A stretch of 64,000 nt of DNA from Eubacterium sp. (GTDB lineage: Bacteria > Bacillota > Clostridia > Oscillospirales > Ruminococcaceae). Below the pieces are notes generated by a model that saw nothing but the letters and a program-made list of their open reading frames with translations, did not search any database and had not been told where the DNA came from. Position 1 is the first letter of the stretch; the number at the start of each line of letters is the position of its first letter. This document shows positions 39,447 to 47,183 of the stretch, in pieces. The translations under genes were made by a program, and so were the position numbers. The DNA lies in contig JAFLRX010000011.1 in assembly GCA_022511265.1 (NCBI GenBank), positions 1-64,000 on the forward strand, given 5' to 3'.

Positions 39447-40373
39447 CTAAAGCTTTTCTATTATCCTTAATTTTGCGCTGTGCGAGCGCTTGTTGCGCTC
39501 CAGCTCCGCTTCCGTCGCCGTTATCGGCTTTTTGTTTACCAGCATGCCGCGCGGCGTCTTACCGCATACGCATACCGGAAACGACGGCGGGCAGGTACAC
39601 CCGGTGCAGTATTCCTTGAATTTATTCTTGACCGCTCTGTCCTCTATCGAGTGAAAGGTTATCACCGCCAGCCTGCCGCCGCTTTTCAGCGCGTCGAATG
39701 CCGCGTCCAGTCCTTTGCCCAGCTCGTCAAGCTCCGCGTTTACCTCTATTCTTATCGCCTGAAAGGTCTTTTTGCAGGGGTTCTTTTCCCTGCGTACCTT
39801 CAGCGGTACATTGCGTTTTATTATCTCGGCAAGCTCCAGCGTGGTCGTTATCGGCTTTTCAGCCCTTGCGCGTTCTATGCCGTACACTATGCCCTGCGCA
39901 TATTTTTCCTCGCCGTAATCGTACAGTATCCTGCGCAGCTGCTCCGGCGGATAATCATTCACTACATCGTATGCGCTGAGTCCGCTGCGGCTCATCCGCA
40001 TATCCAGCGGCGCGTCCTCGTGATAGGAGAACCCCCGCTCCGGCGTGTCCAGCTGATAGGAGGAGACCCCCAAGTCCATCAGCACGCCGTCAACGGCGTC
40101 TATCCCCAGCTTGTCCAGATTTTCGGTAAACCCCGAAAACCGCTCGTTGATTATCGTACAGTTAAATCCCGCCAGCTTTTCCTTTGCCGCCGCACATGCG
40201 TCCGGGTCACGGTCAAAGCCGATAAGCCGTCCGCCGTCAAGACGTTTCGCTATCTCGGACGAATGTCCCGCAAAGCCCATCGTGCAATCGACGTATATCC
40301 CGTCAGGCTTTATCTCCAGCCCTTCGATGACCTCGTCAAGCAGCACGGGTATGTGTATCTGCTTTTCCATCAT
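39447..40373 (-). CDS. rsmH: 16S rRNA (cytosine1402-N4)-methyltransferase
   Basis: HIPVLLDEVIEGLEI, DCTMGFAGHSSEIAKRL, DLGVSSYQLDTPERGFSY. Confidence 0.98.
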   Translation of the reverse strand: MMEKQIHIPVLLDEVIEGLEIKPDGIYVDCTMGFAGHSSEIAKRLDGGRLIGFDRDPDACAAAKEKLAGFNCTIINERFSGFTENLDKLGIDAVDGVLMDLGVSSYQLDTPERGFSYHEDAPLDMRMSRSGLSAYDVVNDYPPEQLRRILYDYGEEKYAQGIVYGIERARAEKPITTTLELAEIIKRNVPLKVRREKNPCKKTFQAIRIEVNAELDELGKGLDAAFDALKSGGRLAVITFHSIEDRAVKNKFKEYCTGCTCPPSFPVCVCGKTPRGMLVNKKPITATEAELERNKRSHSAKLRIIEKL

Positions 40374-40789
40374 ATTCCAAGCTCGAGCGCCTGATTAAGC
40401 AGCTCTTCGCTGTTGGTGACCTCGTTAAAGCGTGCCCATTCGGATTTATCCCAGATTTCCGCGCCGCCCTCCAGTCCGACAACAACAACGTCGGCGGTCA
40501 GCTTTGCGTATTCTCTAAGCGCGGCAGGCACCGATATGCGTCCCTGCTTGTCCGCCGTAACGTCAAACGCGCTGCCGAACAGAAATCTCTGTATCCCCTG
40601 CGTCTGCACCGACGGCATAGAGCGTATCTTCTCCACCAGCTTTTGCCACTCATCAAGGGAATATACCTTGATGCAGGAATTGCCGATAGTCTTGGATATG
40701 ACAAAGCTGTCGCCTATCTCTTCTCTGAGCTTTATCGGGATATTCATACGCCCTTTGGCGTCTAACGTGGATTTGTATTCACCCTTCAC
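40370..40789 (-). CDS. mraZ: Transcriptional regulator MraZ
   Basis: GEYKSTLDAKGRMNIPIKLREEIG, DKQGRISVPAALREYA; GTG start. Confidence 0.97.
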   Translation of the reverse strand: MKGEYKSTLDAKGRMNIPIKLREEIGDSFVISKTIGNSCIKVYSLDEWQKLVEKIRSMPSVQTQGIQRFLFGSAFDVTADKQGRISVPAALREYAKLTADVVVVGLEGGAEIWDKSEWARFNEVTNSEELLNQALELGI

Positions 40790-40991: not shown

Positions 40992-41022
40992 CAAAAAGCC
41001 TTTCCTACCGGAAAGGCTTTTT
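40992..41022 (-). terminator. Terminator of the GHKL/SNF2-like operon (stem symmetric, may be bidirectional)
   Basis: AAAAAGCCTTTCC-taccg-GGAAAGGCTTTTTT. Confidence 0.85.
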
Positions 41023-41124
41023 TGGTAAAATATTCAGTGACTATATCTTGTGTTGTGTGACAAAAACGGTACAAGATAATGTGTCTACGACATTTTCTCC
41101 CTAACGGAGGATTTGCCGTTTTTA

Positions 41125-44100
41125 TTAAAACTCTTCAGCGTCAAGGTCCACTACTTTTATCTCGTGCGGCTCTTCAGCCATCATCGGCATCATGCCGTCG
41201 CCGTAAATCGGTGCAGCCTGACCGTCTGCCGCCGCAGCCTGAGCGTCCGCCTGCATCTGCTTTCTGGTCGCGCCGGGGACGGTGTTGTCCACTATCCACT
41301 TCGCTATCATAAGCGGTGACAGCACGACGTTGATGGATTGCAGCTCGCTCTCGGTGGAAGAATCCGACACCTGACCGTGCACGTCCTCATAGCCCGCGAT
41401 ATCATAGGTCAGCTGGCTGCGGTATCTTACGTTACACAGCATAAACTCCGGCGGGATATAGTCCACCTGATTTACCTCCTCCAGCCACAGGAACGGGTTC
41501 ATACCGCCGATGCTGATATCCTCGAATATCCAGCCGCTGGATGCCGCCGCGTCGTCAGAGCAGAGATAAAGCGCGAACTTGAACCGCTTTTCGGTCTCGT
41601 CCATAAAGATACTTACTTCAAACTCTTTTACAACACGGTTGTTGATTATCTCAGACTCACGCGGGCAGCACTGGCAGGTACCGCCATAGCCGAACAGCTT
41701 GCCGTTTATGTCCTTTGCGAAGTAGTTACGATAAATGCTTTCGTTCTCGATGCTGCGCACACGGTTATACAGATCTTTGAGCAGCTTGATCTCCTGCGAG
41801 TTGAGCGAGGGCTGCGGCTTATAATAATAAGGTATCTGATCCAGCAGCACACGGTTAGGCTCTTCGGTGGTGGAATAATATCTGCCCAGTCTGTTGTCGT
41901 CCATACCGGTAAGCAGAAATTCCAGATAGTGTGAAAACTCCGGCTTCGGTATTCCGTCCATAAGCACGACTATCTTTGCGGCAGCCGCGTCCTCTTCCTC
42001 GGTGGGGATACTGTTCTGATCCAGCACCCTGATGATCTTGTCTTGATCATCGATAAGCGCTATTCTCGGTATCTTGAGGTCGCTGACATGCAGTCTGGGT
42101 ACAATGCTGTCAAATCTTTCGGCTACGCCGTCCTCAGTACCCAGCAGCTCTACTATCTTAGATTTTTCAAAAGAAAATCCTGCCTTTGAAACGGTGAAAT
42201 CAAACAGTCTGCCGTTGAACATACCGCAGCTTATCAGCAGATACGCGTCGCCGACAATTTCCATCAGATCCTTACAGGTGACCTTTGACGGTATCATAAA
42301 CTGCATGCCGTACGCCGCAAAGCGGTATTTTCCGTTAATGTCACGCTGTAGACCTATATCCGCGCCGTCGTTCTTCATCTCGCGCAGGAAGGTCATAGCG
42401 TCTTTTCCCTGTGTAAAGCTGTTTATCAGCAATCTGAGTATATCGTTATAGACACGCTCGTTCTCAAATCTGTCAGCATGTGCGACCACGAAATCATGGC
42501 TGCGCTTCAGATGGTTTACCGTCATCTTGGACACGTCAAAGGTAAAGTCCGAATTGCGGGCGGTCACGTTCAGCTGGTTGTATTTCATTGAGATGCTGTA
42601 GGCCTTGCCGAACACATCGTCGAACATCGTCATAGCGCCTACCAGCGAATCATCATCGGAGAAATAACCGTTCTTTACATAGTCGTCCAGCTTGATGCTG
42701 ACAACGCTGCGGAAGCCGACATTCAGTCCGTAATCCTTTATCGCGGGATTTTTCTCGCTGTCCACTCTCCAGCTCTGATCGCCGAAGCGGAAAATGTAGG
42801 AAAACTCGCGGCCCTTTTTAGTGCCCTCTTCGTCTCTCCATTCATATGACGCGGCGGTTATGCCGTCGTCAAACTGCTCAGTCTCCTGAAGCAGCATCTG
42901 CATTCTTTCTTCTATATATTTCTTTGCGGCATCGCCGGATTCGTGCATCTCATACGGAACATTGCGTTCGTCGCTGAAATAGCCTATCTCACACATTTTG
43001 TCATATGTTATAGGCTCCATACCCGGCGGGCAAAGAGATATATTGCTCTGGAATTTATCGCCCAGCTGACTTGCCATCGGGCTGGTATGGATAAAGTTCG
43101 CGAAGAACTCAAACACAAAGTGCTTGGGTCGCAAATAGAATTTATCGCTGTTGTTGCGTTTTGCTATATCCAGCACGAAATAGCGCGAATACCTGTCGCA
43201 CATATCGCGCAGGTCGCCGGATATTGCCTGTGTCAGCTCTTCCTCGCACTCGTGCTTGATACCGGTACGGTGAGAGGTTATCAGCGAATTGGGTATGCTG
43301 ATGAAAAACGCCGACAGCTTTTGGTTAAGGAACTGCTCGCCGGAAGAATTGAGCAGTCCGGTCAGCTCATAGGTCGAAAAATAGTTGTACTTATCCAGTA
43401 TAACCTTTGCTATACCCGCCCTGCGCGCATTAGACACAGCGTACGGGATAAGGTATACGTAGCCTACCGCCTCATGCCAGATAAAGTCGATAACACCCTT
43501 GCCGTTATGTGAAAAGTGTATCAGCGGGTCGTTCTGAGAGGTCTTGTTTTCCACCCGCGCCACCTTATATGCTGCGAGCATCTGCCCGTTCTCAACGGCG
43601 ATAAGCTCGATTGTACGGGAGGCTACTTCCTTTTCGTCATAGCGTCCGGGCATTTTTTTGCGGACAAACGCAAAGCACAGCTCCACAAGGTTGATGTACT
43701 TGCCCTTTTTCTCGGTAAGGGTCAGTAGATTTTCCTTTATCGCCTCTATCTCGGAATGATCTACGCCAAAGCGTATCTCGGTACCCTGATGCAGCGGCGC
43801 ACGCAGATCCAGCTCACGCAGCAGCAGCGTCCCATCCTCATTGGTCATGCGGAAAGAGAAATTTGCGGAGTGCAGCGTAAACCACTGTACATTCATAAAC
43901 ACGCTCTTCGAGCCGACACCGAAGCGTCCCTCACGGCTTCTGTCGCCGTCGCTTCTGCCTATACTGAGATAGTACAGCAGCTGTTCAAGAGTAAAGCCAT
44001 CCTCGTTATAGGTCAGCTTGATGACGTCATCCTTCTCAAACTCAACCACCACCCTCATCTCTTCGGTGGGGAAGTAACAGCCGAACGCGTTTTGCAGCAG

Positions 44101-44340
44101 CTCGCGCAGTATTGACTCTTTGGGATAGTCGCTTATCGCAAGGCTGGTGTTGTAAGGATTACGGTCGGAATAGATATTGTTGAAGTAATCCCTGAACGGA
44201 GCGATGTCTGCCTGTTCCTGGTATATCATTCGCTGCATTTCGTTTAAGGCTTCTTCAAGCAGCTCAATGTTGTTTCGCGCATGCGCATGGAAGAAATCAC
44301 CGATAAGTGCAGATATTTCACTGCTCTGTCCCATTGACAT
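41125..44340 (-). CDS. HSP90/sacsin-like GHKL (Bergerat-fold) ATPase domain protein, 1071 aa
   Basis: N-box ILRELLQNA; NEDGFTLEQLLYYLSIGRSDGDRSREGRFGVGSKSVF (cf. HSP90 GQFGVGFYSAF). Confidence 0.75.
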   Translation of the reverse strand: MSMGQSSEISALIGDFFHAHARNNIELLEEALNEMQRMIYQEQADIAPFRDYFNNIYSDRNPYNTSLAISDYPKESILRELLQNAFGCYFPTEEMRVVVEFEKDDVIKLTYNEDGFTLEQLLYYLSIGRSDGDRSREGRFGVGSKSVFMNVQWFTLHSANFSFRMTNEDGTLLLRELDLRAPLHQGTEIRFGVDHSEIEAIKENLLTLTEKKGKYINLVELCFAFVRKKMPGRYDEKEVASRTIELIAVENGQMLAAYKVARVENKTSQNDPLIHFSHNGKGVIDFIWHEAVGYVYLIPYAVSNARRAGIAKVILDKYNYFSTYELTGLLNSSGEQFLNQKLSAFFISIPNSLITSHRTGIKHECEEELTQAISGDLRDMCDRYSRYFVLDIAKRNNSDKFYLRPKHFVFEFFANFIHTSPMASQLGDKFQSNISLCPPGMEPITYDKMCEIGYFSDERNVPYEMHESGDAAKKYIEERMQMLLQETEQFDDGITAASYEWRDEEGTKKGREFSYIFRFGDQSWRVDSEKNPAIKDYGLNVGFRSVVSIKLDDYVKNGYFSDDDSLVGAMTMFDDVFGKAYSISMKYNQLNVTARNSDFTFDVSKMTVNHLKRSHDFVVAHADRFENERVYNDILRLLINSFTQGKDAMTFLREMKNDGADIGLQRDINGKYRFAAYGMQFMIPSKVTCKDLMEIVGDAYLLISCGMFNGRLFDFTVSKAGFSFEKSKIVELLGTEDGVAERFDSIVPRLHVSDLKIPRIALIDDQDKIIRVLDQNSIPTEEEDAAAAKIVVLMDGIPKPEFSHYLEFLLTGMDDNRLGRYYSTTEEPNRVLLDQIPYYYKPQPSLNSQEIKLLKDLYNRVRSIENESIYRNYFAKDINGKLFGYGGTCQCCPRESEIINNRVVKEFEVSIFMDETEKRFKFALYLCSDDAAASSGWIFEDISIGGMNPFLWLEEVNQVDYIPPEFMLCNVRYRSQLTYDIAGYEDVHGQVSDSSTESELQSINVVLSPLMIAKWIVDNTVPGATRKQMQADAQAAAADGQAAPIYGDGMMPMMAEEPHEIKVVDLDAEEF

Positions 44341-44341
44341 C

Positions 44342-46321
44342 TTACATCACCCCTTCGTTAAATTTCTTCATAAATTCCTTAAAGCCGTCTTGTATAATAA
44401 ACTCATCCGAGAGATATTTCCAAGAGCTGAGCAGCACCGGCAGCTTCAGCACATCCGGCAGCTGGTTGACGTAGTCTCTCAGCAACGCGCCCTTGTTTTC
44501 ACCGTAATAATCCGAAAGTACATTTCTCGCGTCTTTCGCCTTTTGGTCGGTTTCGGCGTCTGCCAGCCCCGCAATATGCTCGTTGACCTTATCCGGGGTA
44601 TAGTACTCAGACAGCTTTTCTCGTCCTATCGGTACTATCTCGCCGTTTTCGTCCAAATACAGCAGCGAGTTGTTGTATTTCTCAAACACCGGTCTCAACG
44701 CCGTTACCAGCTTTTTAAGGTCGCGCTCGTTGTCCAGCGAGCCGTCCTTTATGCCCAATGCACGGAGTATCTTATCCAGCTTTTCCTTGGTGTACTCAAG
44801 TGCCGCCGACGGGTTAGCCAGATCAAGCTCCAACGGCAGATTAAAGTCGCCCTTGAATTTCAGTATCATCTCTTTGGTAAAGCGCTCGCCCGCCGCCAGT
44901 ATGCCGGTCAGCTCGAATATGCAGCGCGCCGCGTATTCCGCCGCCTGCGGCAGATCAAACAGCACGTTTCTTCCGGGCAGCCCCGCCGAAATGCTTTCGT
45001 AGATCTTACCGTACATTACCTTTGACAGCATACGTCCGTCGAACAACGCGTTATCGTCGGCGAATAATATAAACTCGCGCAGTCCGTTGCGTACATGCCT
45101 TGCGGCACGCACCTCCAGCACCATCGGGTCATCCGGCAGCTCGTAATTGAATATATGCGTATAGCCCTCCGACGCGCTTACCGACAGGCCTGCCGCGTCC
45201 ACCGTTATGAATATTCTGTCTTCTTTAGAGGCGGACACACGCTCGAACTTCTTGCCGATGCGCCCGGTGTTGAACACGCTGCCGCGCTCTACCCTCAATA
45301 TTCCGCTGCTCTTGGTGTACAGCGCATATATTACCTTTGCGAGATAATTCGCGGTCTCGCGCGTTACGCAATATACCGCAACGCGTCCGTCGGTATTCTT
45401 TATAATATCGTCCAGTCTTGACAGGAAGCAATCCAGCTTTTTGTCAACCCTGCGCAGCTCGTCAACGTCTCTCAGCGTGTATACCGGCTTGATATACAGT
45501 CTTGTGATGTCGGTGGCATATTCCTCAAATATATTTCCGCCGTAGGGGTACGCAGGCATACCGGTTTTAAGGTCGGTCATTCTGCGCAGACCGTTAAGGT
45601 ATATCGGGTCGTATGAGTAACGCAGCAGCACGGTCTTACGCGCGGTCTCGCCGCGGAACACCTCCGGCTCGAAATGCCTTGTCATCGGCACGTCACGGCT
45701 GAAATCAAGGCTGTTTTCGTCTATCACATAGCTTTTTGCCGCAGCCGCCTTTGACTCGTCCGCCAGCAATGCCGCCGCCGTACGCCCTAACGCGCCGCGA
45801 TCGCCGTCTCTGCCCACCGGGAACGGCGCAAAGATAAGCAGCTTGTCCGTCTTTATTCCCAGCTTGTCGGTGTACAGCTTTTCATCTATACCGTTTACCG
45901 ACAGGGTAGCGTCTATTATCACAAGGTCCCAGGTGACAGCCTCGCAGGACTTTTTCAGCACCTCGCTGCCGCCCTTCAGCGACGCCACCGACGCAATATA
46001 CATATTAGAGGTCAGCTCTGAAAAATACTCTATCGTGCCGGGTGAAGAGTTAAGCATCTTAAAGTCCGCGCCGCAGCCGGTGACTATATCGCTGTAGCGA
46101 TTATACATCAGGTTCTGCGGACAGATGATAAGAATGTTAGGCAGCTCTTTTTCCACCAAAGTGTCGATTATCGCCAGCTGCATCGTCTTGGTCACATCGG
46201 TGCCGTATTCGTCCAGCACAAAGCAAAAACCGAACCGGCGCAGTCTGTCGTTGCAGACACGGCTAAGCGGATCGGATTGCCTGCCTTGATATAATATCCA
46301 TTTTATTTCATCAGTTTTCAT
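44342..46321 (-). CDS. SNF2/SF2-like helicase-fold protein with eroded ATPase motifs, 659 aa
   Basis: LDEYGTDVTKTMQLA (motif I-like), ILIICPQNLM (Ia), YIASVASLKG (Ib), WDLVIIDATLSVNG (DEAH position), IFNYELPDDPMVLEVRAARHVRNG (motif VI-like). Confidence 0.65.
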   Translation of the reverse strand: MKTDEIKWILYQGRQSDPLSRVCNDRLRRFGFCFVLDEYGTDVTKTMQLAIIDTLVEKELPNILIICPQNLMYNRYSDIVTGCGADFKMLNSSPGTIEYFSELTSNMYIASVASLKGGSEVLKKSCEAVTWDLVIIDATLSVNGIDEKLYTDKLGIKTDKLLIFAPFPVGRDGDRGALGRTAAALLADESKAAAAKSYVIDENSLDFSRDVPMTRHFEPEVFRGETARKTVLLRYSYDPIYLNGLRRMTDLKTGMPAYPYGGNIFEEYATDITRLYIKPVYTLRDVDELRRVDKKLDCFLSRLDDIIKNTDGRVAVYCVTRETANYLAKVIYALYTKSSGILRVERGSVFNTGRIGKKFERVSASKEDRIFITVDAAGLSVSASEGYTHIFNYELPDDPMVLEVRAARHVRNGLREFILFADDNALFDGRMLSKVMYGKIYESISAGLPGRNVLFDLPQAAEYAARCIFELTGILAAGERFTKEMILKFKGDFNLPLELDLANPSAALEYTKEKLDKILRALGIKDGSLDNERDLKKLVTALRPVFEKYNNSLLYLDENGEIVPIGREKLSEYYTPDKVNEHIAGLADAETDQKAKDARNVLSDYYGENKGALLRDYVNQLPDVLKLPVLLSSWKYLSDEFIIQDGFKEFMKKFNEGVM

Positions 46322-46586
46322 TCCTCTGCCCTCCGAAAAGCTGTAAAAGATGATTATACATACTAATTATAATACATTTCTTAGATTTTTACAACGGGTA
46401 AAATGCAATTTATTTATATTTTATCTATAAATTACAAAAAACAACGAAAAATTCGTTTAATATTCACAAAATTGTTTTATTTAATGCTTTCATATTCACC
46501 GCGCTTCTCTTGACAAAGACCGATAAATATAGTAATATAAAGGTGTATGTGAGACAGTACGAGCAATTGTAAAGGCAGGTGGATAT

Positions 46587-47183
46587 ATGAGCCTCACCGA
46601 ACAGGAAATATCGGCTAACAAGCAGCGATTTATCAACATTATCCGTGATAACGTCAAGCGGGACGGTGCGGAAAAGCTGCTGGAATACCTAACCGATAAG
46701 AGCGACTTTTTCATTGCCCCCGCCAGCACACGCTTTCACGGCTCGTATGACGGAGGGCTGGCGCAGCATTCGCTGAACGTATATGACTGCCTGAAGGACT
46801 ACCTTTCCCGCGAAAGGTCGCGCGAGCAGTACAAGATGAACTACAGCGAAGAGACGATAGCTATCAGCGCGCTGCTGCACGACATCTGCAAGGCCAACGT
46901 CTATGTACGCGGCACCCGCAACGTGAAAAACGAGCAGGGCGTGTGGGAACAGGTGCCCACCTACTTTTTCGAGGACAACCTCCCCTACGGTCACGGCGAA
47001 AAATCCGTATATATGATTACCGGCTTTATGCGGCTGACACGGGAAGAGGCATTCGCGATACGCTATCATATGGGCTTTTCCGGGTGCGAGGAGAAAAACA
47101 ACGTCTCCAAGGCGTTTGAGATGTTCCCGCTTGCGTTCGCGCTGAGCACCGCGGATATGGAGGCAAGCTATTTTATCGACTGA
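46587..47183 (+). CDS. HD-domain hydrolase
   Basis: FHGSYDGGLAQHSLNVYDCL, ISALLHDICKANVY (HD), IRYHMGF. Confidence 0.85.
   Translation: MSLTEQEISANKQRFINIIRDNVKRDGAEKLLEYLTDKSDFFIAPASTRFHGSYDGGLAQHSLNVYDCLKDYLSRERSREQYKMNYSEETIAISALLHDICKANVYVRGTRNVKNEQGVWEQVPTYFFEDNLPYGHGEKSVYMITGFMRLTREEAFAIRYHMGFSGCEEKNNVSKAFEMFPLAFALSTADMEASYFID

Follow-up and report, generated by a model that had tools for sequence, protein, structure and literature searches.

A GHKL ATPase and pseudo-SNF2 gene pair of gut Clostridia appears to be a housekeeping relative of pairs from phage-defence regions

Introduction

Does a gene pair that joins a GHKL ATPase to an SNF2-fold protein mark a phage-defence system, or can such a pair serve the chromosome that carries it? 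The question is raised by two adjacent genes in a 64,000-nucleotide stretch (the window) of contig JAFLRX010000011.1 from Eubacterium sp. (assembly GCA_022511265.1; Oscillospirales, Ruminococcaceae), which an initial annotation, working from the DNA letters and their translations, proposed as an undescribed system with an anti-phage colouring. Pairs of a GHKL ATPase and a superfamily 2 (SF2) helicase have been described in defence and restriction-modification (R-M) operons that move laterally. Compared with its relatives at the sequence level, the window pair seems to be the housekeeping kin of pairs that occur in phage-defence regions. The explanation we favour, with about even confidence, is that it forms a core chromosomal operon belonging to a single small branch of gut Clostridia of the Oscillospirales type, encoding a two-protein machine with a housekeeping role, in which an ATP-driven GHKL protein works with a motor-less SNF2 adaptor.

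Results

A single-sequence search with the GHKL protein over 199 related genomes placed its gene in 69 of the 72 genomes of the window's genus, including all 41 near-complete ones (two unmatched genomes of this genus have completeness values of 76% and 86%), and in none of the 104 other genera. A 28-row GHKL profile extended the range to two further genera of the same family, with the pair present in 27 of 27 near-complete genomes of the second and in one genome of the third; sampling about 1,000 genomes across the family, order and class turned up the pair nowhere else, and there were only weak matches to other GHKL proteins. Record titles of the relatives include uncultured Ruminiclostridium and Oscillospiraceae metagenome-assembled genomes. 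The pair occurs as one single-copy locus per genome, with the SNF2 gene immediately upstream of the GHKL gene in 42 of 43 loci with sufficient flank. Because this order and the protein motifs hold even among relatives with as little as about 34% (GHKL) and 22% (SNF2) identity, the association exceeds chance, bearing out the proposal of an obligate pair.

The window pair lies beside mraZ-mraW-ftsL-pbpB-murE-mraY of the division and cell-wall (dcw) cluster (neighbour gene names were assigned by reading translations), and 22 loci, including that of the third-genus member (L100), show the pair just upstream of these genes in the same direction. Between-species distances of the GHKL gene correlate with those of SNF2 (r = 0.97) and MraW (0.90), much as the distances of dcw genes correlate with one another; these sequence comparisons indicate that the pair is vertically inherited along with the dcw locus. 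Its GC content and codon use are native to the genome, and lateral transfer as its source was ruled out by the distance correlation, the synteny and this native composition. Simple Jukes-Cantor counts, with saturated pairs excluded, gave ratios of nonsynonymous to synonymous substitution (dN/dS) of ~0.02–0.14 for GHKL and ~0.04–0.22 for SNF2, demonstrating purifying selection on both genes. The core pair was absent from the plasmid records searched. Phage carriage was likewise rejected: the sole match in phage collections, MT835670.1 (L108), labelled 'Bacteriophage sp.', is an UNVERIFIED fecal scaffold carrying HD, SNF2 and GHKL genes together with ordinary bacterial-looking genes, and appears to be mislabelled bacterial DNA.

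The upstream gene (44342–46321, minus strand, as are all features below unless stated) is an open reading frame for a 659-residue protein whose fold is of the SNF2/RapA kind, with two RecA lobes arranged as in SNF2 proteins, as established by matches to RapA from both a sequence profile and a structural model. A 25-row alignment profile found RapA as its best PDB match (E 9e-9), over motif regions in both lobes, and the AlphaFold2 model (predicted local distance difference test, pLDDT, 83; predicted template modelling score, pTM, 0.86) gave RapA 8spg as the top Foldseek match (E 4.5e-12); single-sequence family matches were weak (Helicase_C 0.0014, HmaA 3e-8). Within this fold, the ATPase motifs are eroded. 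Motif I reads DEYGTDVTKTMQ (46178–46213), aligned to DEVGTGKT of intact relatives, with the P-loop lost; motif II reads WDLVIIDATLS (45899–45931), in which D137 is kept in 44 of 44 relatives and the Glu at the next position in about 9; and motif III is also replaced. Both signatures of active SNF2/SWI2 ATPases, a Walker A GxGKT and a DExH box, are thus absent from the window protein. Other parts are maintained, including a family signature between the lobes, YGGNIFEEY (45518–45544; G261, G262, N263, F265 and E266 invariant in 25 relatives), and a motif VI-like ExRxxRH (45092–45115; R405 in 44/44, R408 in 36/44), which reads EVRAARHVRNG in the window.

Could the SNF2 protein nevertheless hydrolyse ATP through a non-canonical P-loop? 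A lysine aligned to the P-loop Lys in 38 of the 44 relatives, a GxGK[ST] motif kept in one of them (GEGKT in L070), the DE pair at motif II in about nine and the invariant motif VI Arg would fit such an activity. However, none of the 44 combines motifs I and II, the window clade has replaced the lysine (by V, I or F) and lost the motif II Glu, and one shortened partner of 438 residues (L067) is missing the motif I region, so that we regard a surviving ATPase as very improbable. With its selective motif loss, its invariant motif VI Arg and the purifying selection on its gene, the protein is, as far as its sequence goes, a maintained pseudo-helicase.

The downstream gene (41125–44340) is an open reading frame for a 1071-residue protein of the GHKL (Hsp90/sacsin) type. 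It carries the ExxxN box, glycine-containing second motif and GxxGxG(K) lid expected from sequence of the GHKL ATPase superfamily: RELLQNA (44086–44106), with E80 and N84 in 28 of 28 relatives; NEDGFT (43990–44007; YNExGF across the family), with E113 in 28/28 and G115 in 27/28, a motif shared with a Tiamat-like protein (L105) described below; and GRFGVGSKSVF (43897–43929), with G141, G143 and K145 in 28/28. Family members match HATPase_c_3 (best E 1.6e-5), and a medium-confidence structure model (pLDDT 71, pTM 0.49) matched TRAP1/Hsp90 best in Foldseek (E 3e-8), then MutL (1e-7), with GyrB/ParE among the best matches. The HATPase_c_3 matches, the Hsp90/MutL fold and the motifs invariant in 28 relatives therefore place the protein in the GHKL superfamily, and it is apparently a functional ATPase, judging by these conserved residues. 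A PDB sequence search using the GHKL profile gave no match. Against the NCBIfam model P_loop_sacsin (NF047352), the single window sequence scored 26.7 bits (E 5.7e-6; curated cut-off 50), and against Pfam SACS 12.7 bits (cut-off 32.8); by these scores, the likeness to sacsin-type ATPases is real yet distant, falling below the family cut-offs. R358 in THRTGI (43267–43269), an Arg in 28/28 relatives, is a candidate Hsp90-type middle-domain arginine, which we matched by eye and take to be the counterpart of that residue.

Outside the ATPase and middle regions, the sole assignment in the C-terminal part is a putative zinc site formed by C889-x2-C892 (41665–41676; C889 in 28/28, C892 in 27/28) and C927 (41560–41562; 28/28). 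A solo GHKL gene without an SNF2 partner (L068:6882-9803) encodes a protein in which the C-terminal CxxC is gone (CPVSG), one case hinting that zinc site and SNF2 partner go together.

A protein-folding machine, with the GHKL protein as an Hsp90/sacsin-like chaperone and the SNF2-fold protein as a protein adaptor that makes no contact with nucleic acid, would suit the Hsp90s that are the nearest solved folds to the GHKL model, the sacsin-type motifs and the lost ATPase of the partner. MutL and topoisomerase ATPase domains match nearly equally well, however, and the constant SF2-fold partner is more like DNA-acting MORC/paraMORC operons (PMC2292703), leaving a chaperone role distinctly improbable.

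Weak profile matches led us to four further SNF2-GHKL pairs, three from the family of the window's genus (L103, L104, L117) and L107, whose SNF2 proteins retain DEVGTGK[TS], DExH-type and EQRxGR motifs. These pairs share with the core pair their gene order, a homologous SNF2 protein (E 6e-22 over 482 columns), a homologous GHKL ATPase domain, to which GHKL homology is confined (E 1.6e-9), and a C-terminal CxxC...C, seen in the intact-type GHKL proteins as HCPIC...CCKSC close to the C-terminus; they differ in having motifs I, II and III intact, in longer proteins and in a rare, patchy occurrence. One of them, on the Lysinibacillus capsici plasmid pFN9B (L107:192-12081, NZ_CP106864.1), lies between PD-(D/E)XK and UvrD genes on one side and an integrase and an Eco57I-type R-M gene on the other. 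Its GHKL protein is unannotated, and we regard this cluster as a candidate undescribed defence cluster.

A different arrangement (L105:3786-12150) has a DrmD-like SNF2 gene (1193 residues, E 4e-118) immediately followed by a gene for a Tiamat-like protein of 1593 residues that contains two GHKL repeats (TmtA E 1e-83). The genome with this locus carries the core pair too. An SNF2 gene followed by a sacsin-type GHKL gene is thus an arrangement with at least three recurrent forms. Two genomes (G479 and G070) hold the core pair together with one of the other forms, so these forms do not simply stand in for it. The core pair likely descended from an SNF2-GHKL form of mobile or defence contexts. Another weak match (G330) was set aside as containing no SNF2-GHKL pair; its open reading frame is HtpG-like by eye.

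These relatives bear directly on an anti-phage reading, in which the GHKL protein would be the sensor or effector and the SNF2 protein the recogniser of invader DNA. In its favour, the GHKL ATPase domain resembles Tiamat TmtA (1.8e-7), the SNF2 protein resembles HmaA and DrmD, related intact pairs sit near nuclease, helicase and R-M genes and, on a plasmid, an integrase, and SNF2 is the faster-evolving subunit. Yet all 68 near-complete genomes of two genera carry the core pair, at one vertically inherited locus with ordinary neighbourhoods and native composition, searches with family and PADLOC profiles found neither a nuclease domain nor any other known effector in either protein, and neither the plasmid records nor the mislabelled scaffold link it to mobile elements. 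Phage defence is accordingly less likely than a housekeeping role, and in our estimate unlikely; the anti-phage colouring of the initial annotation does not sit well with a single-copy, vertically inherited core locus in synteny with dcw.

Several observations weigh against a housekeeping operon of mobile ancestry. One species (L068) has the GHKL gene alone, and faster evolution than the partner's, as seen in the SNF2 subunit, is frequent in conflict-system parts. In roughly half of the loci the pair is not near mraZ but, where checked, beside other ordinary chromosomal genes (identifiable neighbours include triosephosphate isomerase, phosphoglycerate mutase, Rnf subunits and purine synthesis), and a terminator parts the pair from mraZ in the window clade, so the dcw link may be positional only. 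The SNF2 tree, which is unrooted, forms three separate groups, and the core GHKL domain scores higher against the Tiamat-like protein than against the GHKL proteins of the intact pairs.

The positions of the two genes, of the GHKL and eroded SNF2 motifs, of the terminator and of the neighbouring genes agree with what had been annotated. One base (44341) lies between the stop codon of the SNF2 gene and the ATG of the GHKL gene, and a promoter-like TTGTAA-17-TATAAT (46366–46394; 10/12 consensus matches, pattern only) lies 5' of the SNF2 gene. Between the GHKL gene and mraZ (40370–40789), the first gene of the dcw cluster, an intrinsic terminator (40993–41017) consists of the hairpin GCCTTTCCGGTAGGAAAGGC and T5, and folding of the 150-nucleotide 3' region scores z = -4.95 relative to shuffles; owing to this terminator, co-transcription with dcw was rejected for the window clade. 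Eight close relatives have a hairpin of other sequence at this position, and in most of the distant relatives none was found there. A second palindrome, AAAACGGCAAAT...ACCGTTTTTG (41060–41120), stands immediately ahead of the terminator. On the other flank, a divergent gene (46587–47183, plus strand) encodes an HD-domain protein, which we no longer consider a third component, since no homology to it was detectable in the HD-domain gene that lies upstream of the pair in the second genus.

Discussion

We prefer a chromosomal role over defence because of the core status of the pair. In the mechanism we propose, the Hsp90/sacsin/MORC-like GHKL protein would, by analogy, be the ATP-driven motor and probably dimerises on ATP; an ATP-driven dimerising clamp is established for the Hsp90, MutL and MORC families. 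The RapA-type pseudo-SNF2 protein, its motor lost, may have been retained as a structural adaptor binding nucleic acid or RNA polymerase; the two proteins would form a physical complex, and this complex could act on chromosomal DNA or transcription. Beyond the GHKL protein as likely ATPase, we infer all of these steps. The assignment of ATPase to GHKL and of a non-motor clamp to SNF2 had been suggested at the outset, and is consistent with residue conservation.

More tentatively, as a possibility about which we are doubtful, an SNF2-GHKL conflict module may have been recruited as a core chromosome or transcription machine, with GHKL taking over the whole engine role and SNF2 decaying to an adaptor; this would parallel, in bacteria, the way MORC ATPases were recruited in eukaryotes. 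If true, a version fixed in the core genome of whole genera, with a pseudo-enzyme helicase under selection, would show how conflict machinery can turn housekeeping, and the pair offers a two-gene test case for the bacterial role of MORC/sacsin-type ATPases. It also advises caution, as domains alone are insufficient for labelling helicase and GHKL pairs as defence systems.

The homologues are linked, both folds were recovered and neither protein scored above curated cut-offs for any named system in family and PADLOC profile searches, in keeping with the initial annotation; the libraries and papers searched yielded no record of this exact pair. The likeness to Tiamat (PADLOC TmtA) lies in a sacsin-type GHKL domain with the YNExGF motif; it is restricted to about 90–150 ATPase-domain residues (residues 80–169 in the window protein, E 1.8e-7, short of a full-length match; 21–23 of 28 relatives match), and the window pair is a strict two-gene unit outside defence contexts. 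DISARM DrmD and HmaA are the top PADLOC matches of the SNF2 C-lobe, but the DrmD score is 22 bits against a cut-off of 610, with the ATPase motifs lost and no DISARM or Hma partners adjacent: the neighbours are dcw genes and the HD-domain gene, with no drmA, drmB or drmC. RapA (HepA), the RNA-polymerase recycling SNF2 ATPase, is the closest solved protein by profile and fold, from which the window protein differs in its lost motifs I and II and its GHKL partner; the RNA-polymerase-binding N-terminal domain of RapA was not identified in it. A precedent for a motor-less lobe comes from DndH, in which an SNF2 lobe without activity was proposed to bind DNA (PMC10853773).

The closest known arrangement is that of the MORC/paraMORC R-M operons, in which the association of a GHKL ATPase with an SF2 helicase (Rad25-like or SWI2/SNF2) has already been described, and in which the GHKL proteins were proposed to loop DNA together with the helicases (Iyer et al. 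2008, PMC2292703). Like these operons, the window pair unites a GHKL ATPase gene and an SF2/SNF2 gene in one operon; unlike them, it has no methylase, endonuclease or VSR gene (no companion methylase or nuclease gene adjoins the pair, either here or in the examined neighbourhoods of relatives), its SNF2 protein is catalytically eroded, and it is core and vertical rather than laterally mobile. The claim of an undescribed system therefore stands in part: the type of association is already known (PMC2292703), and what is new is its fixed core status together with a motor-dead SNF2 protein.

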